This document shows positions 588 to 18,932 of a DNA stretch of 22,608 nucleotides, piece after piece. The notes below the pieces were generated by a model, which had not been told where the DNA came from, did no database searches, and worked only from the letters and a program-made list of their open reading frames with translations. Numbering within the stretch: the stretch's first letter is position 1; the number at the start of each line of letters is the position of its first letter. This DNA is from a virus. The position numbers and the translations under genes were made by a program. The stretch lies in the IMG/VR virus record IMGVR_UViG_3300044980_000198, positions 1-22,608 of that record; one strand, written 5' to 3'.

Positions 588-1175
588 ATGTCGACACCTG
601 TGTCAACGCAGCCATCAAGAGTGTCTCCCGATCCAGATCCGGTTTCGTCGGACGTTCGGGAGATTGAGAAGGCCTGGGCCGAGGGCGACAGCGCCCACGC
701 CGAGGCCGGGAAACCGCTAACCATCCATGAAGTTGAAGAGCAGGGGTCAGGGAACAGGGGTCAGGGATCTGGGCTTGTCTACTCTGTGCCATCCGGCTTC
801 GTCGCCGCGATCGAAGAGGCCATGGGCATCGCCGGCGACCAGAGCGCCAGGATGCGCCGCGCGGGCGAGTTGCGCGAGTTCCGCGATCGCGCCATCACCG
901 AGCTGGCCGTTGCCGGCGAGCTGCTGCTGCGCGAGTCGATTCAGCAGATCAGCGTGCGATGGTCGCCTGAACCGCGCGATCTGACGACGGTGCAGCGCTG
1001 CAAGCTGTGCAAGCGCATGTCGCGCGTTGGCGTGGCCATCTTCCACGAGTCGCGCTGCACGGTGACACGCTTCGAGCGCGTGCTGGCCCAGGTGTGCAAG
1101 GCCGACCGCGAATGGCGGGATCTGATCGCGGTGATCACTCAACCTGCCGCCGGCGAAGAGGCGGTGCAGGGATGA
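588..1175 (+). CDS. Hypothetical early phage protein with CxxC...HxxxC motif
   Basis: This 195-residue protein starts at ATG 588 with GGAG at 579-582 as ribosome binding site. It is the first gene after the att site. Its stop overlaps the next start as ATGA (1172-1175), so the two are probably translationally coupled. The N-terminal 50 residues are rich in Pro, Ser and Asp and probably disordered. The C-terminal half is helical and Arg/Glu-rich. CKLC and, further on, HESRC (near residues 140-160) could bind one metal ion, but the spacing fits no family I know. Residues about 50-62 (EEQGSGNRGQGSG) are encoded by a copy of the dispersed heptamer repeat, which is carried in frame. I do not recognise the family. 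Confidence 0.7.
   Translation: MSTPVSTQPSRVSPDPDPVSSDVREIEKAWAEGDSAHAEAGKPLTIHEVEEQGSGNRGQGSGLVYSVPSGFVAAIEEAMGIAGDQSARMRRAGELREFRDRAITELAVAGELLLRESIQQISVRWSPEPRDLTTVQRCKLCKRMSRVGVAIFHESRCTVTRFERVLAQVCKADREWRDLIAVITQPAAGEEAVQG
733..770 (+). repeat. Dispersed CAGGGAT heptamer repeat, copy A (forward)
   Basis: Degenerate units of CAGGGGT, CAGGGAA and CAGGGAT lie inside the first early gene and are translated in frame. The leader plus first units, 20 bp at 733-752, are identical to 3909-3928. Confidence 0.75.
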
Positions 1176-2989
1176 GGAAGCGAGGGATCGGGGAACAGGG
1201 ATCAGGGGTCAGCACTCAGGGATTCAGTGCTCAGGGATCAGGGATCCGCGCTGCTGTGGCCGAGATCGAGCCTGCTGCGGCTGTCGACAATGGCTCCGAC
1301 ATTGGGGCGGGGATGTGCGAGCTGCGCGTTTTGCGCGTGGCGGAGTGGAATGCCCGCAAGACGTTCGACCCCAAGTCGATCGCGGAGCTGGCCGACAGCA
1401 TCCGCATGTACGGCATCCAGAACCCGCTGATCGTACGCGAAATACGGGGGCGCGAGCTGGCCGGCGGGGGATTCGAGATCATCGCCGGGCATCGCCGCTT
1501 CAAGGCTGCCCAGCTGATCGGGCTGGCTGAAGTGCCGGTGAGTGTGCGCGAGTACGATGACGCGACGGCGCGCAAGATCTCCATCGTCGACAACCTGCAG
1601 CGCGAAGATGTGCCGCCGATGGAAGAGGCGGTGGGGTTCAGCGAGCTGCTGGCCTCGCTGGGCTCGGCCGAGGCCGTGGCGGCGACGGTGGGCAAAGAGG
1701 TGGCCTATGTGGCCAAGCGGCTCAAGCTGTGCACGCTGGGCGAGCAGCCGAGGCGCGCACTGGCCGAGCGGCTCATCACCATCGACCACGCGCTGCTGCT
1801 GGCTCGCGTCGGCCTCGAGGAGCAGGATCAGGCGCTGAAGTGGTGCCTGGACACGCAGGCGGGAAGCAAGGTTTCGGCCGAAAAGGTGGTCGAGGCCTCG
1901 ATCAAGAATCGCGACGCTGAGGGAGGGTGGAGAACCTGGGAGCCTGAATCCGTACTGCGGCTCAAGGAACATCTCGAGGAAAGCGTCGGCCGCAAGCTGA
2001 GCCGTGCGCCGTGGCGGCTTGACCAGGTGCTTGCCGGCCCGGAGCTGCCGGTCTGCCTGGGCTGCCCGTCGAACACCGCCGACAACACTTCGCTGTTCGG
2101 CGACCTGGCGATCGACGAGGCGACGTGCGCGGACGGCAAATGCTTCGAGGCCAAGCGCGAGCGGTTTGTGCAGATCGCGCTGGCCGATGCCGGCGCACTG
2201 CAGCACGGGCGCAACGGCGAGCCCGCGATCCGCGTGAGCTGGAAGCAGACCAGCGTCGCGCCGCGCAAGAACAAAGAGGGCGACGGCTTCAACCTGTATC
2301 AGACGTTCAAGGCCGGCCAGTGGGTCGAGGCCGCCAAGCAGAGCTGCGGTTTTCTGCGCGCGGCGGTGACGGTGGACTGGTCGGACTCCGGCGATCGCGG
2401 TTACATGGGCGGCAGCAAGAAGCTGCGCAAGCCGGGCGAGCAGATCACGGTGTGTATCGCCGAGGGCTGCAAGGCGCACCGCAAGGAGTGGGAGAAGCCG
2501 AAATCGAGCAACGGCGCCGGCGGTTACGACGCGAAGGCGGAAGAAGAGAAGCGCGAAAAGAAGCGGCTGGCCGCCCTGGCCGAGACCAAGCTGCGGGTGC
2601 GGCTGGCAGGCGAAGCGCTGGACAAGGTGACCAAGCTCTCGAGCGACGTGCTGCGCGCCGTGCTGGCGCAGGCCTACACCTCGAACAGCTCTGAGCGAGA
2701 GTGCCTCAACGCGGCCTGCCCTGGCCTCGTCAAGACAATCGCGTCCGCCAAAACCGACAGCGCGGAGTTTGCGCGGGCGGTTGCGGCTCTGAGCCTGCCC
2801 GATCTTCACGTTGGGAAATACAACGATGCCAGCTCCGGCCGCGGCGAGTTCATCAAGGCCCTGAGACGCCTCGGATACGACGCATCGAAAGCGTGGGAAA
2901 AGCCGAAGGCGGCCGCTCCGGACAAGGCAAAGGCCAAGCCTGCCAAGAAGGCCGCCAAAAAGTCGGCCAAGAAGGGCGGCCGGAAATGA
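1172..2989 (+). CDS. ParB-like protein with zinc cluster and Lys/Ala-rich tail
   Basis: This 605-residue protein starts at ATG 1172, overlapping the previous stop. Residues about 48-140 match the ParB/Spo0J N-terminal domain: VAEWNARKTFDPKSIAELADSI, then EIIAGHRRFKAAQLIG (GHRR in the position of the ParB nucleotide-binding GERR box), then NLQREDVPPMEEA at 141-153. A helix-turn-helix-like stretch follows to about residue 210. CLGC near 295-298 and C...C near 319-324 (ELPVCLGCPSN, then ATCADGKCFEAK) resemble the zinc cluster found in phage and PRTRC-type ParB relatives. The tail after about 575 is mostly Lys, Ala and Pro and should bind DNA non-specifically. No ParA lies in the window, so classical segregation is unproven; DNA binding or nuclease activity is equally possible. 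Residues about 7-26 come from heptamer repeat copy B. Confidence 0.85.
   Translation: MRKRGIGEQGSGVSTQGFSAQGSGIRAAVAEIEPAAAVDNGSDIGAGMCELRVLRVAEWNARKTFDPKSIAELADSIRMYGIQNPLIVREIRGRELAGGGFEIIAGHRRFKAAQLIGLAEVPVSVREYDDATARKISIVDNLQREDVPPMEEAVGFSELLASLGSAEAVAATVGKEVAYVAKRLKLCTLGEQPRRALAERLITIDHALLLARVGLEEQDQALKWCLDTQAGSKVSAEKVVEASIKNRDAEGGWRTWEPESVLRLKEHLEESVGRKLSRAPWRLDQVLAGPELPVCLGCPSNTADNTSLFGDLAIDEATCADGKCFEAKRERFVQIALADAGALQHGRNGEPAIRVSWKQTSVAPRKNKEGDGFNLYQTFKAGQWVEAAKQSCGFLRAAVTVDWSDSGDRGYMGGSKKLRKPGEQITVCIAEGCKAHRKEWEKPKSSNGAGGYDAKAEEEKREKKRLAALAETKLRVRLAGEALDKVTKLSSDVLRAVLAQAYTSNSSERECLNAACPGLVKTIASAKTDSAEFARAVAALSLPDLHVGKYNDASSGRGEFIKALRRLGYDASKAWEKPKAAAPDKAKAKPAKKAAKKSAKKGGRK
1182..1246 (+). 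repeat. Dispersed heptamer repeat, copy B (forward, longest)
   Basis: About nine degenerate CAGGGAT/CAGGGGT units run within the 5' end of the ParB-like gene and are read as Gln-Gly-Ser-Gly-rich peptide. If the gene began after the repeat, the ParB domain would still be whole, so the repeat looks like an added N-terminal extension. Confidence 0.75.
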
Positions 2990-3246
2990 TCCTCCACGCC
3001 GTGTGGGTTTTGCTTCGACAGCTGTTCGATCTGCGGCGCAGGGTGCCGGCTGCGCTGCGCGCTCTCGATGGCATCCCCACTGACGTGATTGTGCGCGCGA
3101 GCCGCTCGACCGTGGGAATCGTGATCCCCTGCGAGCAGTTCGCTGATTTCCAGGAGTTCAAGGCGTGCTGGGAGCAGCATCGCCGGCTGGTCGACACCGG
3201 GTGGAAATCGAACATGGCCAAGCCGGATGTGGAGCGTGTCAAGTGA
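2986..3246 (+). CDS. Hypothetical small protein (86 aa)
   Basis: The ATG at 2986 overlaps the TGA of the ParB-like gene (ATGA), and the gene ends in the GTGA that starts the next gene. The protein begins with a hydrophobic helix (ILHAVWVLLRQLF) followed by Arg-rich sequence, then a mixed domain with TDVIVRASRSTVGIVIPCEQFADFQEFKACW. The first 15 residues could be a short membrane or amphipathic anchor. I recognise no family. The overlaps at both ends are the best support that it is real. Confidence 0.6.
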   Translation: MILHAVWVLLRQLFDLRRRVPAALRALDGIPTDVIVRASRSTVGIVIPCEQFADFQEFKACWEQHRRLVDTGWKSNMAKPDVERVK

Positions 3247-3398
3247 GGCGGCGCTGGGCGATGTATCTGCTCTCCGCCGCGTTCATCGGCTGCTGCGCGG
3301 GCATGCTGGGGTTTCCGCTGATGCAGGAGCTTGTTCTCGGCGGTTACTTTGTGCTGCTCATCGGAGTGCTCTCGCTCACGGATCGGGGTGTCGAATGA
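3243..3398 (+). CDS. Small membrane protein, two predicted helices (51 aa)
   Basis: GTG 3243 overlaps the preceding stop (GTGA), with GGAG at 3231-3234 at good spacing. The only other in-frame start, ATG 3261, has no better site. After a basic start (RRRW) come two hydrophobic stretches, MYLLSAAFIGCCAGMLGF and LVLGGYFVLLIGVLSL, so it should be a two-helix inner-membrane peptide. It ends in an ATGA overlap with the next gene. Function unknown: such peptides in phage early operons include superinfection-exclusion and lysis-timing proteins, but nothing here decides. Confidence 0.6.
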   Translation: MRRRWAMYLLSAAFIGCCAGMLGFPLMQELVLGGYFVLLIGVLSLTDRGVE

Positions 3399-3688
3399 AC
3401 CTTGTCGCATTCAACGCGCAAGCTCTCCGCGAGCTGATCCTGGGCCTGCTGCGCTTCGGTGCGCTCTGGCTGATTCTGGCGCTGATCCTGGTCGTGCTCA
3501 TCCATCTGACGCGGTGCATTGTGTTCATCCACGCACGGCGCCAGCTCTTCCGCATCGAGCACACGCTCAACACGCGCGCCGAAGAGCGCGACGGGCCCTG
3601 GCGTGGGAAGTATCTCAACCGGCCCGAATCCGGCAACCTCGGCGGCCGCGCCGGCGGCGGCTGGGGCGATGGAGGCGACGCGCCATGA
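3395..3688 (+). CDS. Small membrane protein, one predicted helix (97 aa)
   Basis: ATG 3395 overlaps the previous stop, and the last codons overlap ATG 3685. An amphipathic N-terminus leads into a long hydrophobic helix (FGALWLILALILVVLIHL, about residues 22-40). A basic cytoplasmic-looking segment rich in Arg, Glu and His follows, then a Gly-rich tail (GGRAGGGWGDGG). The layout suggests a single-pass protein anchored near its N-terminus with a flexible soluble tail. I do not recognise the family. Confidence 0.6.
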   Translation: MNLVAFNAQALRELILGLLRFGALWLILALILVVLIHLTRCIVFIHARRQLFRIEHTLNTRAEERDGPWRGKYLNRPESGNLGGRAGGGWGDGGDAP

Positions 3689-3912
3689 GCCGCCAGGTGC
3701 GGGTCTGCCGCTTCTGCGGGTGCAGCGACGCGAATCCCTGCGTCGTGTATCCGCTTGGCGAGCGCTGCTGCTGGATGAACGACGAGTGCGACGTGTGCAG
3801 CGGCACGGAATGCCTGAAGAAATGGGTGGCTCAAAAGAAAGAAGCCGCCAGGGCGGAACACCGCAGGCGTGAGAAGGCGGCGAATCGATACCTGCGGCGG
3901 TTGTGCAATTGA
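3685..3912 (+). CDS. Small Cys-rich, probably zinc-binding protein (75 aa)
   Basis: ATG 3685 overlaps the previous stop. Of the first 45 residues nearly a quarter are cysteine: CRFCGCSDANPC, then CCW, then CDVCSGTEC. The Cys pairs (CxxC, CxC, CxxC) suggest one or two zinc-ribbon or treble-clef units, followed by a strongly basic helix (KKWVAQKKEAARAEHRRREKAANRYLRR) fit for nucleic-acid binding. Small proteins opening CxxCGC..NPC are common in temperate phage early regions, with no established role that I know. The stop codon lies inside the 20-bp segment shared with heptamer repeat copy A. Confidence 0.65.
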   Translation: MSRQVRVCRFCGCSDANPCVVYPLGERCCWMNDECDVCSGTECLKKWVAQKKEAARAEHRRREKAANRYLRRLCN

Positions 3913-3946
3913 AGAGCAGGGGTCAGGGGTCAGAGATCAGGGGTAA
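3909..3946 (+). repeat. Dispersed heptamer repeat, copy C (forward)
   Basis: Units CAGGGGT, CAGGGGT, CAGAGAT and CAGGGGT lie between two genes. The first 20 bp equal 733-752. The TGA of the upstream gene (3910-3912) is within this shared segment. The ribosome binding site of the next gene (AAGGAG, 3945-3950) starts at its end. Confidence 0.78.
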
Positions 3947-3958
3947 GGAGAAAAGCGA

Positions 3959-4198
3959 ATGAAAATCACAATTGAAAGCACGTCGCGGATGGTTGAGATC
4001 AGCAATGAGGCCGGCACTTCGCGTTTTCCGGCGCGGGTGTGGGAGGGCGCAACGGAGAGCGGCATCAAGGTGCAATGCCTGGTTACGCGCATCGCAGCGA
4101 ACGCCGGCGAAAACCTCGAAGAGTTTGAGCAGCAGCTCAGCGAGTGCCGCGCGCGGTCGGTCGAAGTCGAGGCCTTTCCGCTGCGGATGATTCTCTGA
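3959..4198 (+). CDS. Hypothetical small protein (79 aa)
   Basis: ATG 3959 has AAGGAG at 3945-3950 as its binding site. The protein is acidic-to-neutral with alternating beta-like stretches (KITIESTSRMVEIS, IKVQCLVTRIA) and then a helix (ENLEEFEQQLSEC). Nothing marks it as membrane or DNA-binding. I do not recognise the family. It is the first gene after the copy C repeat and opens a new sub-cluster, with a 15-bp gap to the next gene. Confidence 0.6.
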   Translation: MKITIESTSRMVEISNEAGTSRFPARVWEGATESGIKVQCLVTRIAANAGENLEEFEQQLSECRARSVEVEAFPLRMIL

Positions 4199-4213
4199 TT
4201 TCTGGAGTTCGAC

Positions 4214-4759
4214 ATGCAATTTTTCAAGGGCAAGCGGCCGGAGTTTTTCTTTCACACGGCGAAGCCGCGGCGCGACAAGCAGACCGGCAAACGCTTTTGG
4301 TGCGTGACGATGATCGTCACCATGCATGCGGACCTGTCGATCAGCTGCGGCGATTGTATTGCGGCGGCGTACAGCTACCTGCTGACCGCCGAGAACCTGG
4401 CCGAGGAAGTGCTGTTGCTGGGCGAGCTGCCCGGCTGCGCGATCACGTATTACGCCCAGGTGGATGACGCCTATCCGGCGCTGCAGCTGGCCGCCGTCGA
4501 CGTGGGCGGCTTTCGTCTGACGCGCAAGAAAGAGACGGTCGAACTGTGGTTCGGCTTTGAGGCCGAGCTCGATACGCCAGGCCTGCACGGCTTCGTGAAG
4601 CAGTTCGTCTATACGCGGCTGTGGGCTGCGTTCACGCCCGGCCAGGGCGAGCTGGGCTTCGATCCCAAAGAACGCAGCGCGGCGGTTGAATCGCCGCTTA
4701 TCGCCAAAGCTGCTGAGCCGAAGAAGCCGGCGAAGAAGCGCGTCAAAGATCCGGGATGA
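4214..4759 (+). CDS. Hypothetical phage protein (181 aa)
   Basis: ATG 4214 has GGAG about 8 bp upstream. The start is basic (FFKGKRPEFFFHTAKPRRDKQTGKRFW). The body is mixed alpha/beta with an acidic centre (LTAENLAEEVLLLGELPG), and the C-terminal tail is Lys/Pro/Ala-rich (KAAEPKKPAKKRVKDPG), much like the ParB-like tail. No catalytic motif is visible. SCGDC near residues 38-42 is a lone CxxC pair. I do not recognise the family; a nucleic-acid-binding role is only a guess from the tail. After its stop, 155 bp up to 4915 hold no convincing gene. Confidence 0.6.
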   Translation: MQFFKGKRPEFFFHTAKPRRDKQTGKRFWCVTMIVTMHADLSISCGDCIAAAYSYLLTAENLAEEVLLLGELPGCAITYYAQVDDAYPALQLAAVDVGGFRLTRKKETVELWFGFEAELDTPGLHGFVKQFVYTRLWAAFTPGQGELGFDPKERSAAVESPLIAKAAEPKKPAKKRVKDPG

Positions 4760-4871
4760 ATACGGGTTCGGCCTCGGGTTGCGGGGCTGAAGGGCGCGGC
4801 GCACCTGGCGTTAGTGAGCAATGACCATATTGGCCGCCACTGCCAGTCGTTGCGCCGCGCTGGATGAAAAA

Positions 4872-4908
4872 GCAGGGATCAGGGATCAGGGATCAGCGAT
4901 CAGCAGGG
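4872..4908 (+). repeat. Dispersed heptamer repeat, copy D (forward, most regular)
   Basis: Three exact CAGGGAT units, one CAGCGAT, then CAGCAGGG lie directly before ATG 4916. The GGGAG at the repeat end (4906-4910) also serves as the ribosome binding site of that gene. Confidence 0.85.
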
Positions 4909-4915
4909 AGAGGCG

Positions 4916-5524
4916 ATGCGAGTCAATGTTTACGCGGAAGAGATGACGAATCGAGTGGAGATCATCTCGAAGCAGATCGACGGTCAGACATTCACAGGGC
5001 TGCGGTTTTATCTCGAGCTGCCCGTCACTGTTCCGGCGCCTACGGACCCCCCGAGCACTGAGCAGGTGAGCGGGCCGTTCATGCATCGGCCTGGAGATGA
5101 CGATTCGGCAGCGGTGACCTTTTGGGGTAAGCGCGATCTGCGGATTGTGCTGCGGAAGGCTCACGAGCTTCTAAATCAGCACTACGGGTACGGTCCACTC
5201 ACGGCAATCGCGGGGTCTGAACTGATTTCGATCGAGCGCCAGCGGCAGGTGTCGGTCGAGGGCTACGATGCAGCGCATGACGAAGAGCACGACAGGTGCG
5301 AGCTGCTCGATGCTGCGATTTGCTATGCCGGCATGGCCGGGAGCCAGCTGCTTGATGCAGATGCCGGCGTCGACGCGCGGGAGGGATTGCTCGAATGTTG
5401 GCCGTGGGAACGGGCATGGTGGAAGCCGGACGACAGTCCTGTCCGCAACCTCGTGAAGGCTGGCGCTCTGATCGCCGCAGAGATCGACCGCCTGCAGGCC
5501 TTGCGGCTAAAAACTGATCTCTGA
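4916..5524 (+). CDS. Phage protein with conserved helical C-terminal domain, possibly MazG-like
   Basis: This 202-residue protein has a GGGAG binding site just upstream. Residues about 100-200 carry a pattern I have seen in many phage hypothetical proteins: ISIERQRQVSVEGYDAAHDEEHDRCELLDAA, then WPWERAWWKPDDSPVRNLVKAGALIAAEIDRL. The spaced ER..Q, HDEEHD and helical KAGALI..EIDR segments recall all-alpha NTP pyrophosphatases of the MazG kind, which hydrolyse nucleoside triphosphates using Mg2+ held by acidic residues. That link is inference and no EExxD motif is certain. The first 95 residues are of unknown fold. The stop codon TGA (5522-5524) is supplied by the reverse heptamer repeat copy E. 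Confidence 0.65.
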   Translation: MRVNVYAEEMTNRVEIISKQIDGQTFTGLRFYLELPVTVPAPTDPPSTEQVSGPFMHRPGDDDSAAVTFWGKRDLRIVLRKAHELLNQHYGYGPLTAIAGSELISIERQRQVSVEGYDAAHDEEHDRCELLDAAICYAGMAGSQLLDADAGVDAREGLLECWPWERAWWKPDDSPVRNLVKAGALIAAEIDRLQALRLKTDL

Positions 5525-5543
5525 TCCCTGATCCCTGATCCCT
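5515..5543 (-). repeat. Dispersed heptamer repeat, copy E (reverse)
   Basis: On the minus strand this reads as three AGGGATC units and one AGAGATC. It straddles the end of the preceding gene and provides its TGA stop. The following gene begins 9 bp later without a clear ribosome binding site. Confidence 0.82.
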
Positions 5544-5551
5544 CAAAAGCT

Positions 5552-5818
5552 ATGGCTGACGCGAAGCGCAAGACGGACTGGACGAAGACGGGCACGATCG
5601 CCTGGTACGCCAAGTATCTGCGCGAGCAGGCGGGCGCGCTGGCGGTGATGGTGATACGGCGCGACGATGCGGTGCTCTCGGCGGATGCGCTGATTGCGCC
5701 CAGGGACGTGGAGATGCTGATTGCCGACAGGCTTCCCGCGCTGGTGAACGATCTGCGGCTGAGCCGCGAGGAGCGCCGGCCGGCGGCGCGGGTGAGTTTG
5801 GGAGAGGTGCGGGAATGA
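5552..5818 (+). CDS. Hypothetical small protein (88 aa)
   Basis: ATG 5552 follows repeat copy E with no obvious Shine-Dalgarno sequence, so either coupling to the upstream gene or leader-independent starting is needed. The protein is helical and Arg/Ala/Asp-rich (KYLREQAGALAVMVIRRDDAVL, VEMLIADRLPALVNDLRLSREERRPAAR), with no membrane segment and no known motif. I recognise no family. Coding bias resembles its neighbours and it fills the gap cleanly, which is the main support. Confidence 0.55.
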   Translation: MADAKRKTDWTKTGTIAWYAKYLREQAGALAVMVIRRDDAVLSADALIAPRDVEMLIADRLPALVNDLRLSREERRPAARVSLGEVRE

Positions 5819-5860
5819 GCAAACGGCGGTTGAGGGTTTAGCGGCTGAAAGGCGGGGGCG

Positions 5861-5980
5861 ATGTGGCAGATCACGGATCGGAAGTTGCTGGAGAAGCGCG
5901 AGACCGGCGCCTGGGTGTGGATAGGGTGCGTGCTGATTGTGCTGGCTGCCTGCGGGCTTGCCGCTGTGCTTTGGCGGTGA
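5861..5980 (+). CDS. Tiny single-pass membrane peptide (39 aa)
   Basis: ATG 5861 to TGA 5980 encodes a charged start (MWQITDRKLLEKRETGAW) and a single hydrophobic helix to the C-terminus (VWIGCVLIVLAACGLAAVLW). A G-rich stretch 5851-5859 could act as ribosome binding site. Its size is that of phage membrane micro-proteins. It lies in a gap between two genes on the same strand and ends 4 bp before the next start. Function unknown; reality is supported only by its clean helix and fit. Confidence 0.45.
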   Translation: MWQITDRKLLEKRETGAWVWIGCVLIVLAACGLAAVLWR

Positions 5981-5984
5981 AGCG

Positions 5985-6357: not shown

Positions 6358-6359
6358 CG

Positions 6360-7466: not shown

Positions 7467-7488
7467 CGCGAGTTAGGTTGGTAATTAT

Positions 7489-8373: not shown

Positions 8374-9330
8374 ATGGCCAATGAACTGCAAGTGCTGGCC
8401 TGGCGCACCAAGCTGGGCAATAGCACGGCGAAGAATGTGCTGGCCTTTGTGTGCGACAGCGCCAACGGCAGCGACGGCTGCTGTTTTCCGTCGGACGGAT
8501 ACATCGCCCAGATGACGGAGATCTCGGAACGCACGGTGGCCAGGATGATCGAGGTCTTCGAAGAGATCGGCCTGATCAAGCGGTTCAAGATCAAGCGCAA
8601 CGGGAAGACGATCCGGGCGCTGGAAGTGGCGATACCCAGGCTGGGCACGGACCTGCATGCGGAGTTTGAGGAGGCCTATGCGCGAGCCCAGGGCAAGGCT
8701 GGATTCGGGCCGCGGATATGTCGCAGCGACAGTGAAAACGATGTCGCAGCGACACAAAACAGTGTCGCAGCGACAGAAAAAGATGTCGCAGCGACAGTAC
8801 CCCCACACCCCCATAAAGGTGGAACCGTAAGTGAACCGCCATTGAACCAAACCCTAAACCCTAAACCCAAACCCGCGGGGGCGCGTGTGCCCGGCGAGCC
8901 GGACGTGAGCTGCGCGGTGAGCGCGGCGATGCGCGGCTGCGGGCTGAGGCCCGGCGACAAGCCGCTGCGGGCGGCGCTGCGCGAGGTGGTGATGCGGCGG
9001 GCGGCGGCCGGCCAGCCGCCGGAGCTGGCGGCCGCGGCGATGGTGGCGGCGTGGCGGGAGTTTACGGCGCTGGGCGAAGAGCGGCTCAGGTTTTCAGCGA
9101 TGCGGTTTTTCGGCGAGGGAATCTGGCTGGACAGGGCGGCGTGGAGGCCGGCGGCGCGGGGCGCGCCGGCGCTGCGGGATGTGCCGGGGCCGGGGAGTTT
9201 CGCGCGGTCGAAGACGCCGTGGCGCGATATGTGCTCGGCGGATTTGATTGCTCACATCGAGGCCAAGCATGCGCGCGGCGAGCCGTTGGACGAGATGGAA
9301 GCCGGCGTGATCAGGGAGGGCGAAACGTGA
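8374..9330 (+). CDS. Phage replication initiator, lambda O-like architecture
   Basis: I chose ATG 8374 because GGAGGGAG (8355-8362) lies at the right distance; an in-frame TTG at 8335 has nothing comparable. The 318-residue protein has a winged-helix domain at about residues 15-90 (STAKNVLAFVCDSANGSDG, then PSDGYIAQMTEISERTVARM, then EEIGLIKRFKIKRNG), as in phage O proteins and HTH_36 replication proteins. A low-complexity linker at about 115-185 follows. The C-terminal part is Ala/Arg-rich (LRPGDKPLRAALREVVMRRA, EMEAGVIREGE) and would recruit a helicase or loader. The linker DNA carries four palindromic iterons, exactly as lambda ori lies inside gene O. The closing GTGA overlaps the next gene. 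Initiator identity rests on domain order and iterons, not on catalytic residues. Confidence 0.75.
   Translation: MANELQVLAWRTKLGNSTAKNVLAFVCDSANGSDGCCFPSDGYIAQMTEISERTVARMIEVFEEIGLIKRFKIKRNGKTIRALEVAIPRLGTDLHAEFEEAYARAQGKAGFGPRICRSDSENDVAATQNSVAATEKDVAATVPPHPHKGGTVSEPPLNQTLNPKPKPAGARVPGEPDVSCAVSAAMRGCGLRPGDKPLRAALREVVMRRAAAGQPPELAAAAMVAAWREFTALGEERLRFSAMRFFGEGIWLDRAAWRPAARGAPALRDVPGPGSFARSKTPWRDMCSADLIAHIEAKHARGEPLDEMEAGVIREGET
8719..8796. repeat. Four 13-bp palindromic iterons; predicted replication origin
   Basis: TGTCGCAGCGACA (6-bp arms around one A) occurs four times without a mismatch: 8719-8731, 8742-8754, 8763-8775 and 8784-8796. Start-to-start spacing is 23, 21 and 21 bp, about two helical turns, so all sites face one side of DNA. 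The 8-10 bp spacers are A-rich. The array lies inside the linker of the initiator gene and encodes (D/S)VAAT repeats. Lambdoid origins have the same plan: four inverted-repeat iterons within the O gene bound by O dimers. Confidence 0.85.
8849..8874 (-). repeat. C-rich CCCTAAA tandem tract, G-quadruplex motif on the minus strand
   Basis: The + strand reads AAACCCTAAACCCTAAACCC and then AAACCC. The minus strand therefore has four GGG runs separated by 3-4 bases, the classic four-tract pattern. It lies 52 bp after the last iteron. A second C-run pair, CCCCCACACCCCC, is at 8800-8812. Confidence 0.8.
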
Positions 9331-10819: not shown

Positions 10820-10824
10820 CTACG

Positions 10825-11521: not shown

Positions 11522-11727
11522 TGGGTCGAAATCTCTGCAAAACCTAAACCTTACACCGTTGTGCAGCAAATTTTTATATCTCCAGAATTCATCGTTTTGG
11601 GTTGGCGTAAGCGTCGCCAGCCGCGTCATTGCGTTGCTTCACCGACTTGGCCGCAATCGCGTCCAGTGGCGCGTAGAGAGGCTCCTGGCCGCATGCTCAG
11701 CTCGAAAAACCTACGAGAGGCGTTCCC

Positions 11728-12318
11728 ATGGGTCGCACGCGACAGCCAAAAGAGCTCGCTGACCTCAAGGGTAGCTTCATCAAGCATCCTGAGCGCGAAG
11801 CTGCATACGCAAACACGCCAAGGCCGACCGGCCTCATCGGTCCGCCGCCGGCAGACTGGCTTCCGGACGCCCGCGCCGTTGAGCTGTTCGCACAGGGAAG
11901 CGACGCGCACGCAGTCGCAACCGAGCTGGGCATCCAGTGGGAGCGCGCCAAGACGCTGCGCCCTGGGTCGCCGGAGTTCATTCGCAACGCCGAGCTCGTA
12001 TCCATCTGGCACGAGCTCGTCTCGCAGGCGCCGCCGGGTGTGCTTCTCTGGTCTGACCGCATCCACCTCGAGGCCACATGCCGAATACTGCAACGCATCC
12101 GCTCTGGAGACGACCGGCCTGGCGACTTCAACCGCCTCAAAGAGTTTCTCGGCAAGATGGCGATGAATCCCGCCGATCGCACCAAGGTTCAGGTGATAGT
12201 GGGCGGCGTCGCTGCGCAGCCAGACCCAGCATCCTCTTCAGCCGCCGGCCGTGAGCCTAATGTCAACGTCTTCGAGCAACTCGCCTCGGAAGAGCGCGAG
12301 CGAACCGCAGTCAACTAA
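11728..12318 (+). CDS. terS: Terminase small subunit, P27 family
   Basis: This 196-residue protein starts at ATG 11728 with GAGAGG upstream. It opens GRTRQPKELADLKGSFIKHPERE, the P27-family start (RxP..LK.L.G), then a Pro-rich link (GPPPADWLPDAR). The helical core follows, with IWHELVSQAPPGVLLWSDRIHLEATCRIL, matching the W.e....p.GvL...D...le..c pattern of the family. An extra stretch at about residues 55-85 (VELFAQGSDAHAVATELGIQWERA) may be a small HTH. Small terminases form rings that bind pac or cos DNA and regulate the large subunit. The next gene overlaps its 3' end by 59 bp, usual for a TerS-TerL pair. Confidence 0.82.
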   Translation: MGRTRQPKELADLKGSFIKHPEREAAYANTPRPTGLIGPPPADWLPDARAVELFAQGSDAHAVATELGIQWERAKTLRPGSPEFIRNAELVSIWHELVSQAPPGVLLWSDRIHLEATCRILQRIRSGDDRPGDFNRLKEFLGKMAMNPADRTKVQVIVGGVAAQPDPASSSAAGREPNVNVFEQLASEERERTAVN

Positions 12319-14050
12319 CCTATCCGGAGCGGAGCGCCTCGAGCGCTACGTCGCCGGCGTTCTCTCCGGAAAGATCCTCGCCTGCAAAGACATCAAGCTC
12401 GCCTGCCGGCGTCATCGCAAGGATCTCAAAAGCAGTAAGCGCAACCTCAAAAAGTTTCCCTGGTACTTTTCTGAAGAGCACTGCAATCGCTTCATCCGGT
12501 TTCACGAGGGATTCCCGCACGTCAAGGATGACTTCCGCGGCCGCGCCCGCGATCACGAGCGGTTCAACCTCGAAGACTGGCAGTGTTTCGTTTATGGATC
12601 CATCTTCGGATGGGTCGACAAGCAGGATGGCTCGCGGCGCTTCAATGAGGCGTATGTAGAAGTCCCGCGAAAAAACGGCAAGACTCCCAATGCCGCGGTC
12701 GTAGGTCTGTTTGGACTCACAGCAGATGGAGAGTATGGCGCCGAGATCTTCGCGGGAGCGAGCTCGCGTGAGCAGGCCGGCGAAGTGGGCAGCATCTTCG
12801 ACACGGCTCGCGCGCTTGCTCTCGCGTCTCCTGAGTTCCGCCAGGCTTACGGCGTATGGGTGAACGCCAATTCGATCGTCGTCGCGTCGAAAAACGCGAG
12901 CTTCAAAAAGGTCAAGGGCAACCCGCAAGACGGTCCGGCGCCGCACATGGTGTTGGCCGACGAGCGGCATGAGTACAAAACCGATCGCATCATCGAGTGG
13001 GCGCGCAACGGCATGGTCTCGCGCCGGCAGCCGCTACTGCTCTCAACCACCACCGCCGGGCACAACACGGCATCGGCCTGCTATCGGGCCAACGTCGAAG
13101 CTCGCGAGATCCTCGCGGGCCGCATCCAGAACGACCGGCAGTTTTGTTTCGTCTCGACCATCGACCGCGGCATGGATTGGAGATCCAAGCGCGCGTTGCG
13201 CATGGCCAATCCCAACTACGGGGTAAGCATCAATCCCAAAAAGATCGAGGGCGATCAGCAGCAGGCTCGACAGTCCGCAGCCAAGCAGGCGGCATTCAAA
13301 ACCAAGAACCTCAACATCTGGGTAAACGCCGGCAAGCCCTGGATGGACATGGATCGCTGGGACGAGTGCCGCGACCGCGAGATGAAGATCGAGCAGTTCG
13401 CGTCCGATCCCTGCATTCTCTCTGTTGACCTGGCATCGCGCAAGGACACGGTATCCACGCCGAGGCTCTTCAAGCGCAGGCTGCCAACTGCCGAAGGCGG
13501 TGAGCTCCAGGATCACTACTACTGCTTTACGCGCGGCTATCTCAACTCCGAGCAGGTGCGGGATGAAAAGAACACGCACTTTGCGGACTGGGTAGAGCGC
13601 GGCATGCTCATTGAGACGCCGGGCAACGTCACCGACTACCTGCAGATCGCCGACGATGTCGCGGCCGACGCGTTGAATCTCGATCTTCGCGAGATGGTGT
13701 TTGATCCGTTCCACGCCGCTCCGTTCGCGCAGATACTTCAGGCGCGCGAAGATTGGCCGCAGGAGATAGAATTCGCCGAGCTCAAGCAGAGCGATATGAA
13801 TATGTCGCCCGCCATGCAGGAGCTCGAAGCCGCGGTTCTCAGCCGGCGCTTTCATCACGATGGCAATGAGTTCCTTGCCTGGCAGATGGGCAATGTGCGG
13901 TGCATCATCAGCCGCAAGGACTACTGGTACCCGGATCGCGAGATCAAGGAACGCAAGATCGACGGTCCGGTCAGCATTATCCTCGGCCTCGCGCGCCTCA
14001 TGGTGCTCGCTGTCGATGAGCCGCAAGGCGCAGGAGTCGTTTGGGCATGA
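12260..14050 (+). CDS. terL: Terminase large subunit (ATPase and nuclease)
   Basis: From ATG 12260 the protein has 596 residues; GTG 12251 is a possible earlier start. The ATPase has the variant Walker A PRKNGKT (about 136-142) typical of HK97-like Terminase_1 enzymes, and Walker B MVLADE (about 230-235), followed by LLLSTTTAGHN as coupling motif. The C-terminal RNase H-like nuclease shows acidic SVDLASRKD near 390-400, VFDPFHAAPF, and RKIDGPVSIILGLARLMV near the end. It pumps DNA into the prohead through the portal and cuts concatemers. Length is normal and all motifs are in place. Its TGA overlaps the start of a small membrane protein gene. Confidence 0.96.
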   Translation: MSTSSSNSPRKSASEPQSTNLSGAERLERYVAGVLSGKILACKDIKLACRRHRKDLKSSKRNLKKFPWYFSEEHCNRFIRFHEGFPHVKDDFRGRARDHERFNLEDWQCFVYGSIFGWVDKQDGSRRFNEAYVEVPRKNGKTPNAAVVGLFGLTADGEYGAEIFAGASSREQAGEVGSIFDTARALALASPEFRQAYGVWVNANSIVVASKNASFKKVKGNPQDGPAPHMVLADERHEYKTDRIIEWARNGMVSRRQPLLLSTTTAGHNTASACYRANVEAREILAGRIQNDRQFCFVSTIDRGMDWRSKRALRMANPNYGVSINPKKIEGDQQQARQSAAKQAAFKTKNLNIWVNAGKPWMDMDRWDECRDREMKIEQFASDPCILSVDLASRKDTVSTPRLFKRRLPTAEGGELQDHYYCFTRGYLNSEQVRDEKNTHFADWVERGMLIETPGNVTDYLQIADDVAADALNLDLREMVFDPFHAAPFAQILQAREDWPQEIEFAELKQSDMNMSPAMQELEAAVLSRRFHHDGNEFLAWQMGNVRCIISRKDYWYPDREIKERKIDGPVSIILGLARLMVLAVDEPQGAGVVWA

Positions 14051-14256
14051 CGGAAAGCAAAAAGAAGCCTATGCTCTCGCCGGAAGCGACAATCCTGCTC
14101 GCCGCTTTCGCCGGCCTGGCGCTCATCGTTTTCGGCGCGTGGCTCATCTACCATCCGCTTGGGCCAATCGTCGCCGGCGTCATTCTGCTGCTCGGCGCGG
14201 GCCTGGCTCAGTACGACCGCGATCGCAACGCGCGTCTGCGGGGCGATGTTCAATGA
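14047..14256 (+). CDS. Small two-helix membrane protein between terminase and portal (69 aa)
   Basis: ATG 14047 overlaps the terminase stop and ends in an ATGA overlap with the portal gene, so it is embedded in the packaging operon. After a basic start (MTESKKKPMLSPEA) two hydrophobic helices follow, ILLAAFAGLALIVFGAWLIY and PIVAGVILLLGAGLA, then a charged tail (QYDRDRNARLRGDV). Head genes are rarely interrupted by membrane proteins. Its role is unknown: it could tether packaging to the membrane or act against superinfection, both guesses. Confidence 0.65.
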   Translation: MTESKKKPMLSPEATILLAAFAGLALIVFGAWLIYHPLGPIVAGVILLLGAGLAQYDRDRNARLRGDVQ

Positions 14257-15911
14257 GCCTGCTCAGCTCCATCACGCGAGGCGCGCTGGGCATACGCGCC
14301 GACGTAAGCGGAACGCCCGCGCCGTGGGACGACTACTGGTACAACCCGTTGGGCACGGCCTCGGCCAGCGGCATGCGCATCACCGCCGAATCGGCCAAGC
14401 GCGTGGCCACCGTGCTGGCCTGCGTCAACATCATCGGCCGCAATATCGGCATGATGCCTATCAAGATCTACACGGAGGCTCCGGACGGATCAAAGCGCGC
14501 CGTCGACCATCATCCGTTGTATGACGTGCTCTATCAGCGGCCGAATTCGCAGCAGACGGCCTTCGAGTTCAAGCAGATGATGCAGGGGCATCTCGAGCTG
14601 CGCGGCAACGCCTACGCCGAGATCAAAGAAGGGCCGCGCGGCCCGGTCGATCAGCTCATTCCCATGCATCCCGATCGCGTGACCGTCGAGCGGCTCATCC
14701 CTTCCGGCAAGCTGCGTTACGTGTATAATGACCCGCTCACGGCGACCACGCGCAAGCTGATGGAAGGCGAGGTTTTTCACCTTCGCAATTTTTCAGACGA
14801 AGGCGCGGTCGGGCAATCGACCATCGGTATGGCCTGCGATACGTTCGGCCTGGCGCTCGCGCAGCAGGATTACGCCGCGCGGTACATGAAGAACGACGCG
14901 CGGCCGCCGTTGGTGCTCGAGGGCACCGACTCCAAATCGAAGTACAACCAGAAAGAGCTGCGCGAGAGCTGGCAGAAAGATCAGACCGGATCAAACCGCG
15001 GCAAGGTTGCCATCCTTCCGCCCGGTGTTTCGGTCAAGGCAATCGGCGTAACGCCGGCAGACCAGCAGCTGCTCGAGGCGCGCAAATACTCGCGCATTGA
15101 GATCGCGTCCATTTTCCCGGTGCCGCCGCACATGATCGGCGAGACGGAGAAGACGGCGACCTATGCCAGCGTCGAGCAGTTCAACATCTTCTACGTGGTT
15201 CATTGCATTCTGCCGCGCGTTGTTCTGTGGGAGCAGGCCATCCAGCGCGATCTGCTCACCTCCGACAAATACTTCTCTAAATTCTCGCTTGCCGCGTTGC
15301 TCCGCGGCGACACGGCCGCGCGCTATGCGGCGTATCACATCGCCATCGGCGACGGCTGGATGTGCCAGGACGAAGCCCGCGCCTTTGAAGATCTCAATCC
15401 TATTCCCGGCGGCATCGGCCGGCGTTTCTGGCGTCCCGTCAACTGGGCGCCGCTCGACCAGGTCGACGCTCCCGCCGCGCTGCCGGCGCAGACTGCCGAG
15501 ACGGCAAGCGACGATCCCGGATCAGGCCAAGGCGATGGCGACGGCGGCGAAGGCGGCGCTCAGGATTCAGCGGCTCAGGCGGTCCGCTTGCAGCTCAAGG
15601 CTCTCGCCGCCGGCGTCGCCGATCGCTGCGTTCGCAAAGAGGTAGCCGCGCTGCGCAAGATGGTCGATCGCGGCGCTTCAGACTACGACGTCGAAGAGTT
15701 CTACGCCGGCCAGCGCGACTTCGTGCAGCAGGCTTTCAACATCGACGGCGATCGCATGTTGCCGTTGCGGCAGGTCTACTTTGAGCGCGCCGGCCAGGTC
15801 GCCGCGTTCCTGGCCGCCGGCGATAAGGCCGGCGCGTATAACTTCATCGATCTTCTGGCGGTCAAGGAGCAGATGCGCCTGGCCGGCATTGTTACCGGAG
15901 GGGTAGAGTGA
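14253..15911 (+). CDS. Portal protein, HK97 family
   Basis: ATG 14253 overlaps the previous stop; the protein has 552 residues. Family blocks seen: ITAESAKRVATVLACVNIIGRNIGMMPIKIY, DHHPLYDVLYQRPNSQQTAFEF, HLELRGNAYAEI, VFHLRNFSDEGAVGQS, SRIEIASIFPVPPHMIG, and SVEQFNIFYVVHCILPRVVLWEQAIQRDLL. A Ser/Gly/Asp-rich linker (about 418-445) leads to a C-terminal helical domain ending with INKDL-like YNFIDLLAVKEQMRLAGIVTGG. The dodecameric portal is the DNA entry gate at one head vertex. The C-terminal domain of about 110 residues is longer than in the smallest family members. The stop overlaps the protease start (15908). Confidence 0.95.
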   Translation: MSLLSSITRGALGIRADVSGTPAPWDDYWYNPLGTASASGMRITAESAKRVATVLACVNIIGRNIGMMPIKIYTEAPDGSKRAVDHHPLYDVLYQRPNSQQTAFEFKQMMQGHLELRGNAYAEIKEGPRGPVDQLIPMHPDRVTVERLIPSGKLRYVYNDPLTATTRKLMEGEVFHLRNFSDEGAVGQSTIGMACDTFGLALAQQDYAARYMKNDARPPLVLEGTDSKSKYNQKELRESWQKDQTGSNRGKVAILPPGVSVKAIGVTPADQQLLEARKYSRIEIASIFPVPPHMIGETEKTATYASVEQFNIFYVVHCILPRVVLWEQAIQRDLLTSDKYFSKFSLAALLRGDTAARYAAYHIAIGDGWMCQDEARAFEDLNPIPGGIGRRFWRPVNWAPLDQVDAPAALPAQTAETASDDPGSGQGDGDGGEGGAQDSAAQAVRLQLKALAAGVADRCVRKEVAALRKMVDRGASDYDVEEFYAGQRDFVQQAFNIDGDRMLPLRQVYFERAGQVAAFLAAGDKAGAYNFIDLLAVKEQMRLAGIVTGGVE

Positions 15912-17140
15912 AAACTTACGAACATATCCGCCGCGCTCTGGCCGGCAAGCTCTGGTATCTGCACGAACCCAAGCTGAACGAGATGCTTTCGTTCCTCGAG
16001 CTCAAGTTCGCCGGCGGAACGGTCTCGCCTGAAATCGTCGCCGAGATTCGCGAGGCCAATCGTGTGCGGGGAAATCGGGCAATGCAGCTTCTGCCCATCG
16101 TCGCCTACAACGACTATGACGATGAGCCTTCGGCGCCGAAATCGCGCGTCAATACGGTGTCGTCGGCCAAATCCGGCGCGGTTGCCGTTATCCCTGTCTA
16201 TGGCATGATCATGCACCGCGGAAGCATGATGAGTGATATCTCCGGCGGCGGGGGCGCGTCCATTGAAGGTTTGCGGCAGGACCTGCGCGCGGCCGTCAAC
16301 AATCCCAGCGTCAAGGCCATCGTGCTCGACGTGGATTCTCCTGGCGGCGACGTGGATGGCGTCGAGGAGTTCGCGCAGGAGATCTACGAGGCCCGCAAGC
16401 AAAAGAAGATCTCCGCGGTCTCCAATTGCCTTTGCGCTTCCGCCGCTTACTATCTCGCCTCGCAGGCCTCCGACATGGTCGTGAGTCCAAGCTCGCTCAC
16501 TGGATCGATCGGCGTCTACACCGTGCACGCGGATTACTCCAAGAACGATGAGATGAACGGAGTTCGATGCACACTCATCAAGTTCGGCGAAAACAAGGCC
16601 GAGGGAATCGACTTTGAGCCGTTGAGCGACAGCGCCCGCGAGCACATGCAGGAGATGGTAGACGGCTTCGGAGCGATGTTTGAGAAAGCTGTCGCGCGCG
16701 GCCGCGGCGTCAAGCAGGATGACGTGCACAAAAAATTCGGCCAGGGAAGAATCTTCGATGCAAGGCAGGCGGTCAAGCTGGGCATGGCCGATCGCGTCGG
16801 CACGCTCGACGACGTCCTCCAGGGTTATGGCGTTTCGCGCAACCCTTCGGCCGCGGCCTCTGCGGACCATCCGGTGCAGGTCTCCGCGTCAATCGCCAAG
16901 AAATCCGATGTCGGCGAACCCGATGAGGATGAGAACGATCAGGCCGCCGACGATCCCAATGACGACTCGCCCTGCGCATGCGCCTGCCCGGAGTGCAAGG
17001 GCGAAGACTGCAAGGCATGCAGCTGCAAAGACTGTGCCTGCAGCGGCTGCGCCTGCGATATGGCCGCCAGGGCGCGCAATAACATGAAGTCTGCCATGCA
17101 GCGCCGGCGCATCGAGCTCGAACTTGCCGCGGCTGATTAG
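15908..17140 (+). CDS. S49 (SppA/ClpP-fold) head maturation protease with Cys-rich tail
   Basis: This 410-residue protein has S49 blocks: AVIPVYGMIM (about 93-102), AIVLDVDSPGGDVDG (137-151), CLCASAAYYLASQASDMVV with candidate nucleophile Ser178, SLTGSIGVYTVHADY (196-210), and FGENKAEGIDFEPLSD with candidate base Lys230. The 52-residue Ser-Lys distance agrees with single-domain SppA enzymes. Between portal and capsid, such a protease trims the capsid N-terminus and scaffold before DNA filling. The C-terminal 75 residues are odd: an acidic linker (PDEDENDQAADDPNDD), then eleven Cys in 28 residues (356-383), metallothionein-like, then a basic helix. The protease part appears intact. Confidence 0.9.
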   Translation: MKTYEHIRRALAGKLWYLHEPKLNEMLSFLELKFAGGTVSPEIVAEIREANRVRGNRAMQLLPIVAYNDYDDEPSAPKSRVNTVSSAKSGAVAVIPVYGMIMHRGSMMSDISGGGGASIEGLRQDLRAAVNNPSVKAIVLDVDSPGGDVDGVEEFAQEIYEARKQKKISAVSNCLCASAAYYLASQASDMVVSPSSLTGSIGVYTVHADYSKNDEMNGVRCTLIKFGENKAEGIDFEPLSDSAREHMQEMVDGFGAMFEKAVARGRGVKQDDVHKKFGQGRIFDARQAVKLGMADRVGTLDDVLQGYGVSRNPSAAASADHPVQVSASIAKKSDVGEPDEDENDQAADDPNDDSPCACACPECKGEDCKACSCKDCACSGCACDMAARARNNMKSAMQRRRIELELAAAD

Positions 17141-17156
17141 AGATTCACCGGGAACG

Positions 17157-17174
17157 ATGGCTGGCGTCAGCCAT
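17157..17174. other. Short perfect hairpin between protease and zinc-ribbon gene
   Basis: ATGGCTG, loop GCGT, CAGCCAT. There is no T-run after it, so it is more likely an RNA processing or stability element, or chance, than a terminator. Confidence 0.4.
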
Positions 17175-17191
17175 ATCAACCGAGGCTCACC

Positions 17192-17335
17192 ATGCAAAAA
17201 CAACCATATCCTCCGATGCCGCGCCCTGTTCCGCCCGCGCCGAGATGCTCGCAGTGCGGTCGAATCAAGACCGGCGATCACCGCTGCGAGATTTTGGCCG
17301 AAAAGGGGCTGGATAAGCGCCCTGACGGGATGTAG
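17192..17335 (+). CDS. Small zinc-ribbon-like protein (47 aa)
   Basis: ATG 17192 has GAGG 8-9 bp upstream and runs to TAG 17335. A Pro-rich start (QKQPYPPMPRPVPPAPR) is followed by CSQCGRIKTGDHRCEIL: a CxxC pair plus a later His-x-Cys could form a half zinc ribbon. It lies between the head protease and the capsid gene, ahead of a strong terminator, so it is the last gene of the terminase-portal-protease transcript. No family recognised. The size, binding site and Cys pattern make it plausible. Confidence 0.5.
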   Translation: MQKQPYPPMPRPVPPAPRCSQCGRIKTGDHRCEILAEKGLDKRPDGM

Positions 17336-17380
17336 GGAGTTAAGCGCGGGCGAAGCACGGAGAAAATTTCAAAACGCTGA

Positions 17381-17411
17381 AAGGCCTGGCCGAAGCCGGG
17401 CCTTTTCTTTT
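17381..17411 (+). terminator. Rho-independent terminator upstream of the capsid gene
   Basis: AAGGCCTGGC (17381-17390), loop CGAA, GCCGGGCCTT (17395-17404): a ten-pair stem with one G-T pair, followed by TTCTTTT. This is a textbook intrinsic terminator. Confidence 0.88.
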
Positions 17412-17477
17412 GGAGCCAAGGCTCTGCAACTCGCGCTACCCGATGCCCGATGGCGATCGGCGTGGTGTCCCATTCGG

Positions 17478-17512
17478 TCTCTGATCTCCGATCTCTGACC
17501 ATTGACCCCTGT
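17478..17512 (-). repeat. Dispersed heptamer repeat, copy F (reverse, degenerate)
   Basis: On the minus strand: CAGGGGT, CAATGGT, CAGAGAT, CGGAGAT, CAGAGAC. It occupies the space between the terminator and the capsid ribosome binding site, where a capsid promoter would be expected. Confidence 0.7.
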
Positions 17513-17533
17513 TTTCCATGAAGGAGAAAACAA

Positions 17534-18844
17534 ATGGACATCAAGAAGCTCAAGCAGCGCAAGGCTGACCTGATCGCTCAGGCCAAAGCCATCTTCAGCG
17601 TTGCCGATACCGCGGGCCGCGATCTCACCGCCGAGGAGCGCGTTCAATACGACGCGATCATGGATCCCAAGACGGGCTCCGTGGCATCTCTCGCGGGAGA
17701 TATCGCGCGCGCCGAAGCCCTGCTCGAAACGGAGCGCAACTCGCCCAGCGGCATCGCCGTCGTGGCGGACAACGCAACCAAGAAGCCCTTTGCCAGCCTG
17801 GGCGATCAGCTCGGCGCTCTTGCCAAATCCACACTGGCGGTGCAGAGCGGCCGCGCTCACCTCGCCGATCCGCGCGTCATGGCGGCGTTGGGCGCATCGG
17901 AAACCGTGCCTTCCGACGGCGGCATGCTGGTCGAGCCTGAATTCTCCGGCAAGGTGCTCGAGAAGATCTACTCGACGGGCGAGATCGCCAGGCGCATCGA
18001 GCCGCTCAAGATGACGTCGGCCAAGCTTTATATTCCGTCCGTCGATGAGCAGTCGCGGCAGGATGGACAGCGCTGGGGCGGCATACTGAGCTACTGGCTG
18101 GCTGAAGCGCAGAGCTACGCCGGCGTCAAGCCCAAGTTCAACCAGGTGCAGCTGGTCGCCAACAAGCTCACCTGCCTCATGTATGCCACCGACGAGCTGC
18201 TCGAAGACACAACCATGCTCGAGAGCTACGCCGGGCGCGTGGTGCCCGACGAGCTCGCGTTCAAACGCGATCTCGCCATTCTCTCCGGCAGCGGAGCCGG
18301 CCAGCCGCTGGGCATCTGGAACTCGCCTGCGACAATCCAGCAGGCCATTGTCAGCGCGGAGACTTCCATCTCTACCGCCGACATTCTCAACATGTACTCG
18401 CGTCTATTCGCTCCGTGCCGCAAAGACGCATTCTGGGCCATCCATCAGGCGCTTGAACCCAAGCTGATCCCTCTCACCATCGGCTCCCCGTCGCTGGCGC
18501 AGATCCTGCTTTACCAGCCGCCGGGCGGCCCTATGGGCAACAAATACGGAAGCATGCTGGGATTGCCCGTCGTTCCTATCGAGCAGGCCTCGGCGCCTGG
18601 AGTGGTCGGCGACATCACGCTGATTTCTCCCGACGGCTACATCCTTGCCGATCGCAACGAGGTCAAGGCTGACACCTCCATCCACGTCGCCTTCCTCACC
18701 GGCGAAGTGGCCTTCCGCTGGCAGATCCGGTTCGACGGCCAGCCGTGGTGGAAGCAGCCGCTGCAGCCTTACTACCCGGCCGGCGGAACTGCGCCGCCGA
18801 CTCAGGCTGCCTTCGTCACGCTGGGCGCGCGTTCCGGCGACTAA
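17534..18844 (+). CDS. Major capsid protein, HK97 fold
   Basis: ATG 17534 has AAGGAG at 17521-17526, the best ribosome site of the module. The N-terminal 70 residues are helical and charged (KKLKQRKADLIAQAKAIF, then AGDIARAEALLETER), a delta-domain scaffold usually removed by the maturation protease. The shell domain follows: SDGGMLVEPEFSGKVLEKIY, LYIPSVDEQSRQDGQRWGG, WLAEAQSYAGVKPKFNQVQL, LTCLMYATDELLEDT, AFKRDLAILSGSGAGQPLGIWN, ALEPKLIPLTIG, GSMLGLPVVPIEQA, and ITLISPDGYILADR. The 436 residues suit the family. It is the main head shell protein. It is flanked by a terminator and a hairpin, so its mRNA may be separate. Confidence 0.95.
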   Translation: MDIKKLKQRKADLIAQAKAIFSVADTAGRDLTAEERVQYDAIMDPKTGSVASLAGDIARAEALLETERNSPSGIAVVADNATKKPFASLGDQLGALAKSTLAVQSGRAHLADPRVMAALGASETVPSDGGMLVEPEFSGKVLEKIYSTGEIARRIEPLKMTSAKLYIPSVDEQSRQDGQRWGGILSYWLAEAQSYAGVKPKFNQVQLVANKLTCLMYATDELLEDTTMLESYAGRVVPDELAFKRDLAILSGSGAGQPLGIWNSPATIQQAIVSAETSISTADILNMYSRLFAPCRKDAFWAIHQALEPKLIPLTIGSPSLAQILLYQPPGGPMGNKYGSMLGLPVVPIEQASAPGVVGDITLISPDGYILADRNEVKADTSIHVAFLTGEVAFRWQIRFDGQPWWKQPLQPYYPAGGTAPPTQAAFVTLGARSGD

Positions 18845-18860
18845 TCTCAATCGGTCAGTG

Positions 18861-18889
18861 AGGCTGGAGGGCCAGGTGCTCTCCGGCCT
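18861..18889 (+). terminator. Strong hairpin after the capsid gene
   Basis: AGGCTGGAGGG pairs with CTCTCCGGCCT (eleven pairs, two of them G-T) around loop CCAGGTG. No U-run follows, so partial termination or 3'-end stabilisation of capsid mRNA is likelier than full stop. Degenerate reverse heptamer units (copy G, 18886-18908) follow directly. Confidence 0.55.
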
Positions 18890-18932
18890 CTGAAGCCTGA
18901 TCTCTGACAACCGTTCTTCGGAGGAAACTCTC

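Follow-up and report, generated by a model that had tools for sequence, protein, structure and literature searches.

Phage-borne CAGGGAT heptamer arrays as probable members of a host-lineage repeat family

The virus record IMGVR_UViG_3300044980_000198 of the IMG/VR database (22,608 bases, one strand; this whole stretch is referred to as the window) encodes a terminase, portal, head protease and capsid together with a ParB-like protein, and carries dispersed tandem arrays of the heptamer CAGGGAT. We consider it probable (approximately 0.6) that the phage carries, in these copies, members of a heptamer family that belongs to its host lineage (Acidobacteriaceae), with degenerate (CAGGGAT)n arrays that were seeded at gene edges, then underwent slippage, and exert local effects only as by-products. 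Short seeds would reach phage gene edges during infection, probably through recombination by short homology or annealing in which arrays of the host or of other phages are the partners, after which polymerase slippage would lengthen and shrink them. Selection would spare arrays mostly where they are harmless, i.e. after stops, before starts on the antisense strand, and within disordered protein ends when in frame, because the G-rich strand as sense is free of stops in any frame and the C-rich strand contains TGA in all three. Any influence on nearby genes, through added peptide, a stop codon supplied by the array, an altered ribosome-binding region, or local structure in DNA or RNA, would be a by-product and would not account for the presence of the arrays.

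Arrays of the window and their settings

A search of the window with a 14-mer of two CAGGGAT units, allowing up to two mismatches, gave 17 matches compared with a chance mean of 0.22. The copies were then scored by their best mismatch count in a scan with three units (21-mer, any phase, both strands; Table 1). In six Markov-1 random genomes of window size, no cluster was obtained at ≤4 mismatches, two at 5, and seven at 6. Judged by these controls, five of the seven copies claimed in the first-pass annotation (A1–A5) are secure, and A6 is degenerate yet above chance, whereas A7 (18,886–18,908) is indistinguishable from it. Chance composition or an assembly artefact, to which A7 and partly A6 come close, is refuted for A1–A5 by the number of matches and by the presence of the same arrays on long host contigs (e.g. 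G506:C1, 6.8 Mb) and in named isolate records; as an explanation of the family it has next to no probability.

Table 1. Heptamer arrays and relevant genes of the window (positions in the window)
Feature	Position	Strand	21-mer extent	Best mismatch count	Remarks
A1	733–770	+	733–778	2	CAGGGGT-CAGGGAA-CAGGGGT-CAGGGAT with leader TTGAAGAG; in frame within open reading frame (ORF) 588–1175; G-quadruplex consensus present
A2	1182–1246	+	1179–1256	2	Interrupted, seven GGG runs, two overlapping 21-mer stretches; in frame right after ATGA (1172), the conserved start of the ParB-like gene
A3	3909–3946	+	3908–3951	3	Overlaps, then runs on from the stop codon (3910–3912) of ORF 3331–3912
A4	4872–4908	+	4861–4910	0	Three perfect units and CAGCGAT; final partial unit blends into the purine-rich ribosome-binding region of gene 4916
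A5	5515–5543	-	5506–5550	0	G-rich strand antisense; provides TGA stop (5522–5524) of ORF 4916–5524
A6	17478–17512	-	17475–17513	4	Degenerate; between head protease gene and capsid gene start at 17534
A7 (putative)	18886–18908	-	18885–18916	5	Foot of a terminator-like hairpin 3' of the capsid gene
ParB-like partition protein gene	1172–2989	+			Bears A2 at its 5' end
Phage gene of unknown function	4916–5524	+			Between convergent arrays A4 and A5
Structural module (terminase large subunit, portal, head protease, major capsid)	12251–18844	+			No secure array; served to find relatives

All copies had been placed at gene starts, ends or gaps, or in frame within early genes, and this placement was confirmed: the arrays at 1182 and 3909 follow stops at 1175 and 3912, the one at 5515 overlaps a stop, those at 17478 and 18886 precede starts, and the copies at 733 and 1182 lie in frame within open frames. 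The ATGA at 1172 combines the stop of ORF 588–1175 with the start of the ParB gene, and A2, which contains the inverted repeat AGCACT-N9-AGTGCT (1211–1231), comes next. Downstream of A3, AAGGAG is followed by an ATG at 3959. Between the end of A5 and the ATG at 5552 are 8 bp, and unlike in some relatives no Shine-Dalgarno-like sequence is left there; A6 and A7 end 22 and 25 bp ahead of a gene start, respectively. The 20-mer TTGAAGAGCAGGGGTCAGGG, reported as a leader common to 733–752 and 3909–3928, was confirmed and has no third occurrence in the sequence searched. Its reading as a sign of copying holds only in part: the eight shared leader bases give just modest evidence, because the 5' flanks of such arrays are generally purine-rich.

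The settings next to starts and stops are also consistent with selected regulatory elements, in which G-quadruplexes formed at gene edges, in DNA or in RNA, would tune transcription or translation of early genes. A1 and A2 match the quadruplex consensus of four G runs and make up all four overlapping plus-strand quadruplex matches of the window, and related heptamers form quadruplexes in vitro (Rehm et al. 2015, PMC4692102). However, five of the seven window copies fail the consensus, related phages do without arrays at comparable junctions, and no role in gene regulation could be identified by Rehm et al. (PMC4692102), which leaves this explanation quite unlikely. Phase variation, where loss or gain of one 7-bp unit would shift the frame of ParB or ORF 588 and thereby switch the gene, is less probable still. 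The unit length is not divisible by 3, A2 separates the ParB domain from the start codon, and a whole-unit change was seen between orthologous host arrays, although this was a single difference between host species. On the other hand, A1 and A2 are interrupted and degenerate, which would slow slippage; the G-rich strand is stop-free in any frame, alternative starts exist downstream of A2, and for heptamers of this class Rehm et al. regarded phase variation as unlikely (PMC4692102).

Distribution in the presumed host genus and gain in the phage lineage

The late genes of the window are up to 71–75% identical at the DNA level (best segments) to prophages of the Acidobacteriaceae genomes G532, G539 and G328, and soil Acidobacteria (Acidobacteriaceae) are the likely host as judged from these relatives. 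The prophage of G532 is one of the closest relatives of the late genes in DNA, and G532 belongs to the genus of genome G001. Sequences with at most two mismatches to (CAGGGAT)3 were found in 54 of the 59 genomes of this genus, with up to 206 matches per genome, and the array DNA of host locus L028 matched 51 of the 59. The unit is thus strongly over-represented in the presumed host genus, and a repeat that had been described from one phage genome turned out to belong to a host genus and to a class already in the literature (Rehm et al. 2015, PMC4692102). In a phylum-wide search, the exact triplet was detected in only 12 of 297 Acidobacteriota genomes, which indicates that the family is concentrated in some lineages; many other phyla contain sporadic carriers of degenerate (CAGGGAT)n arrays. 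The unit vocabulary of the window resembles that of the host genus: CAGGGAT, CAGGGGT and CAGAGAT have shares of 0.37, 0.22 and 0.11 in the window and 0.43, 0.11 and 0.06 in the genus, where CAGGGAA adds 0.19. The corresponding shares in a second array-rich phage (G016, see below) are 0.35, 0.23 and 0.16.

Heptamer scans of the prophages in G532, G539, G328 and G466 and of loci L197 and L244–L252 revealed no array, and L196 contained a single weak array at another place. In side-by-side readings of the protease-capsid and capsid-18933 junctions and of the regions upstream of ParB and of 5552, the relatives were without arrays. The ParB start is identical (GGATGA) in the window and in L197, so that the array forms extra N-terminal coding sequence: the window protein reads MRKRGIGEQGSGVSTQGFSAQGSGIRAAV... 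ahead of the EWNARKTFDP common to both and is approximately 22 residues longer. The first 90 residues encoded by gene 4916–5524 are 54–74% identical (best segment) in 43 otherwise different viral contigs, with a 44th weak match, and the second half of the product matches other families; an array-like sequence was found at only one of these 44 loci and was weak (four mismatches). A capsid query among viral contigs found no relative. Comparable sites in related phages thus lack the units, which leaves the repeat family standing, and because the related prophages examined are without arrays, the window copies are lineage-specific gains made after the split from repeat-free relatives. Apart from the arrays, the window (17440–17470) and the related phages L247, L248 and L251 share a recurrent element 5' of the capsid gene, in which a sequence resembling TGCCCGATGGC precedes GCCGCAGCGC.

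Several points weigh against an origin of the copies from the host family. The host is assigned through relatives, and the closest phage relatives are just 66–75% DNA-identical over the late genes, so that the points of insertion in the window can be placed only to an accuracy of some bases. With six matching 21-mers in 22.6 kb, the window has approximately 265 per Mb compared with approximately 42 per Mb in the densest host genome; passive sampling of host DNA leaves this excess unexplained, although the window was picked for its arrays. Finally, slippage cannot start an array at a new site, and no seeding event was observed.

Array growth, seeding and mobility

Growth by slippage, one of the two origins suggested in the first-pass annotation, is supported by the orthologous host loci L306 and L311 (92% flanking identity), where one array is longer than the other by exactly one 7-bp unit; changes by whole units are as expected if arrays grow and shrink by slippage. 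At L293 and L308, two arrays are kept at the same gene edges with differing unit variants. At another locus, a CAGGGAT array stands right after the stop codon in L028, a different G-rich repeat occupies the place in G680, and G601 has none. The L306/L311 core had appeared to occur in both orientations, a potential sign of mobility, but the two proved to be one orthologous locus on opposite contig strands. Among viral contigs of different samples, sets with a common flank before a CAGGGAT array were observed (L118/L124/L128/L132, L120/L125/L136, L126/L135/L145 and L133/L138/L151; e.g. the hairpin-like tcgcgaRgacctcgcgcctgag), in which copy number and downstream sequence vary.

The anatomy of arrays was evaluated with gene calls from a simple longest-ORF script that extends frames through stop-free arrays, so that in-frame counts are upper bounds. 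The heptamers of Rehm et al. strongly prefer intergenic DNA (about 90%, PMC4692102); in the host genus, 31 arrays were intergenic and 25 lay in open frames as called by this script. Arrays within open frames are nearly all G-rich sense (sense:antisense 24:1, 44:4 and 25:0); CAGGGAT repeats read as sense are stop-free in all frames while ATCCCTG repeats contain TGA in every frame, which explains the orientation tolerated inside genes. Intergenic arrays have the nearest gene on their 5' side, with median distances of 14 nt (5') versus 81 nt (3') in the host genus, 23.5 versus 98.5 nt in all genomes, and 36.5 versus 93.5 nt for the G016 arrays; this rule was not seen in 30 other viral loci (103 versus 59.5 nt). 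Neighbouring arrays converge almost without exception, with +- to -+ ratios of 25:0 at genome loci of many phyla, 11:1 in the host genus, and 20:1 in G016.

G016 (IMGVR_UViG_3300037258_000931, 132,674 bases; loci L321–L327), in which terminase and primase were found, carries 67 arrays: 51 lie before position 60 kb, and the stretch from 60 to 100 kb has no more than one. Its syntenic relative L329 is without arrays across 21.6 kb; the two are 76% identical at the DNA level along 1.5 kb of the primase gene. The G016 primase contains the in-frame array stretch GVRDQGSGISPSGGGVPW, which is missing from L329, and another G016 array starts at a stop codon conserved in L329. Approximately 20 convergent pairs in G016 surround a common core, (GCAARA)n-CCGCRGGTCCTTCGRCTYCGGTCGCT...CTCAGGATGACAGG, and several of these array-core-array composites lie directly behind tRNA-like sequences. 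A REP-like (repetitive extragenic palindromic) palindrome (GTCATCCTGAGCG...) was considered as an obligatory partner because of its presence in the G016 composites and was rejected, as it occurs near only 3 of 118 arrays of other genomes (control: 3 of 2360); it is not convincingly present in the window.

The arrays could instead be the ends of a small non-autonomous mobile element, in which an unidentified transposase would move a core flanked by convergent arrays that act as terminal inverted repeats. The near-constant convergence, the repeated composites of G016, and the position of window gene 4916–5524 between A4 and A5, with AAAAG close outside both, fit this proposal. However, 39 convergent pairs gave no indication of target-site duplication (mean match 2.59 versus 2.58 for shuffled pairs, p about 0.5), and therefore the small mobile repeat offered in the first-pass annotation is not supported. 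Because the other array pairs lend duplications no support, the AAAAG repeat was attributed to chance. Moreover, the two arms of a pair resemble each other only slightly more than do arms drawn from different pairs (0.82 versus 0.80), cores vary from site to site in host genomes, and the G016 core occurs free of arrays in host genomes in two displayed cases (L335 and L336). Convergence also follows if each array points away from a gene edge. On balance, a mobile element is an unlikely source of the arrays. A somewhat better, though still doubtful, alternative is an unknown copying process that actively seeds gene edges across bacteria and phages, by which the lineages of the window and of G016, the latter with approximately 20 composites of roughly 150–250 bp, would have been flooded recently. 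Seeding from arrays of the host family followed by slippage remains the reading that we favor.

Other features of the window were noted in passing. Its replication initiator gene contains a 21-bp tandem repeat with the palindrome TGTCGCAGCGACA (8719–8797), resembling origin iterons, and a short AAACCCT run (8849–8874), the plant telomere unit and another heptamer of the G3N4 type. A tRNA-like 3' end (GGGAGTTCGAATCTCTCCGGGCGCACCA) at 386–421, between a recombinase-like C-terminus and the early genes, is a likely attachment site; ARAGORN found no complete tRNA in the window, and Rfam gave no match anywhere in it.

Comparison with known repeat systems

A literature search with the literal repeat string retrieved no paper. 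Short tandemly repeated repetitive (STRR) sequences are heptamers dispersed in a bacterial genome, as are the arrays described here. Heptanucleotide STRR sequences of cyanobacteria, e.g. of Calothrix, differ in units and phylum; they are cited in PMC4692102. With repetitive extragenic palindromes, bacterial interspersed mosaic elements (BIME) or miniature inverted-repeat transposable elements (MITE), the arrays have in common that they are short interspersed intergenic DNA, at times in inverted pairs, but the unit here is non-palindromic, there is no target duplication, and no transposase was recognised beside the window arrays. The same core at many sites, as in a MITE, is seen in G016 and not in host genomes. 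The archaeal Borg elements (Schoelmerich et al. 2023, PMC9879509) are likewise extrachromosomal and enriched in rapidly formed tandem repeats, which are intergenic or, in frame, give disordered peptide; here, in contrast, one unit family is common to phage and host chromosomes.

The closest counterparts are the G-rich heptamer repeats GGGAATC of Xanthomonas and GGGGA(C/T)T of Nostoc (Rehm et al. 2015, PMC4692102). They share with the arrays a 7-bp period with a G run, dispersal in few or variable units, a short distance to the gene at the 5' end and a long one at the 3' end, pairs that converge, and the lack of a link to insertion sequences. The unit differs, being CAGGGAT (= GGGATCA) with the variants CAGGGGT, CAGAGAT and CAGGGAA, which makes it a sister unit and not the same repeat. 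Further differences lie in the taxa (Acidobacteriaceae and their phages), in the many arrays that code in frame, and in the quadruplex consensus, which fits just two of the seven window arrays. Two Xac plasmids had no heptamer repeats according to Rehm et al. (PMC4692102), whereas here mobile genomes are densely arrayed.

The arrays belong to a known class of host-type heptamer repeat, to which they add a new unit, and they accumulate in phages. In conserved phage proteins such as ParB and primase they add peptide, and they confuse gene calling because the G-rich strand is open in all frames. The main paper on such heptamers leaves their role unknown. Phages with up to dozens of arrays gained since the split from array-free relatives provide before-after comparisons that are rare in chromosomes, and the flooding of some phages, set against their array-free relatives, makes the origin of such repeats testable.

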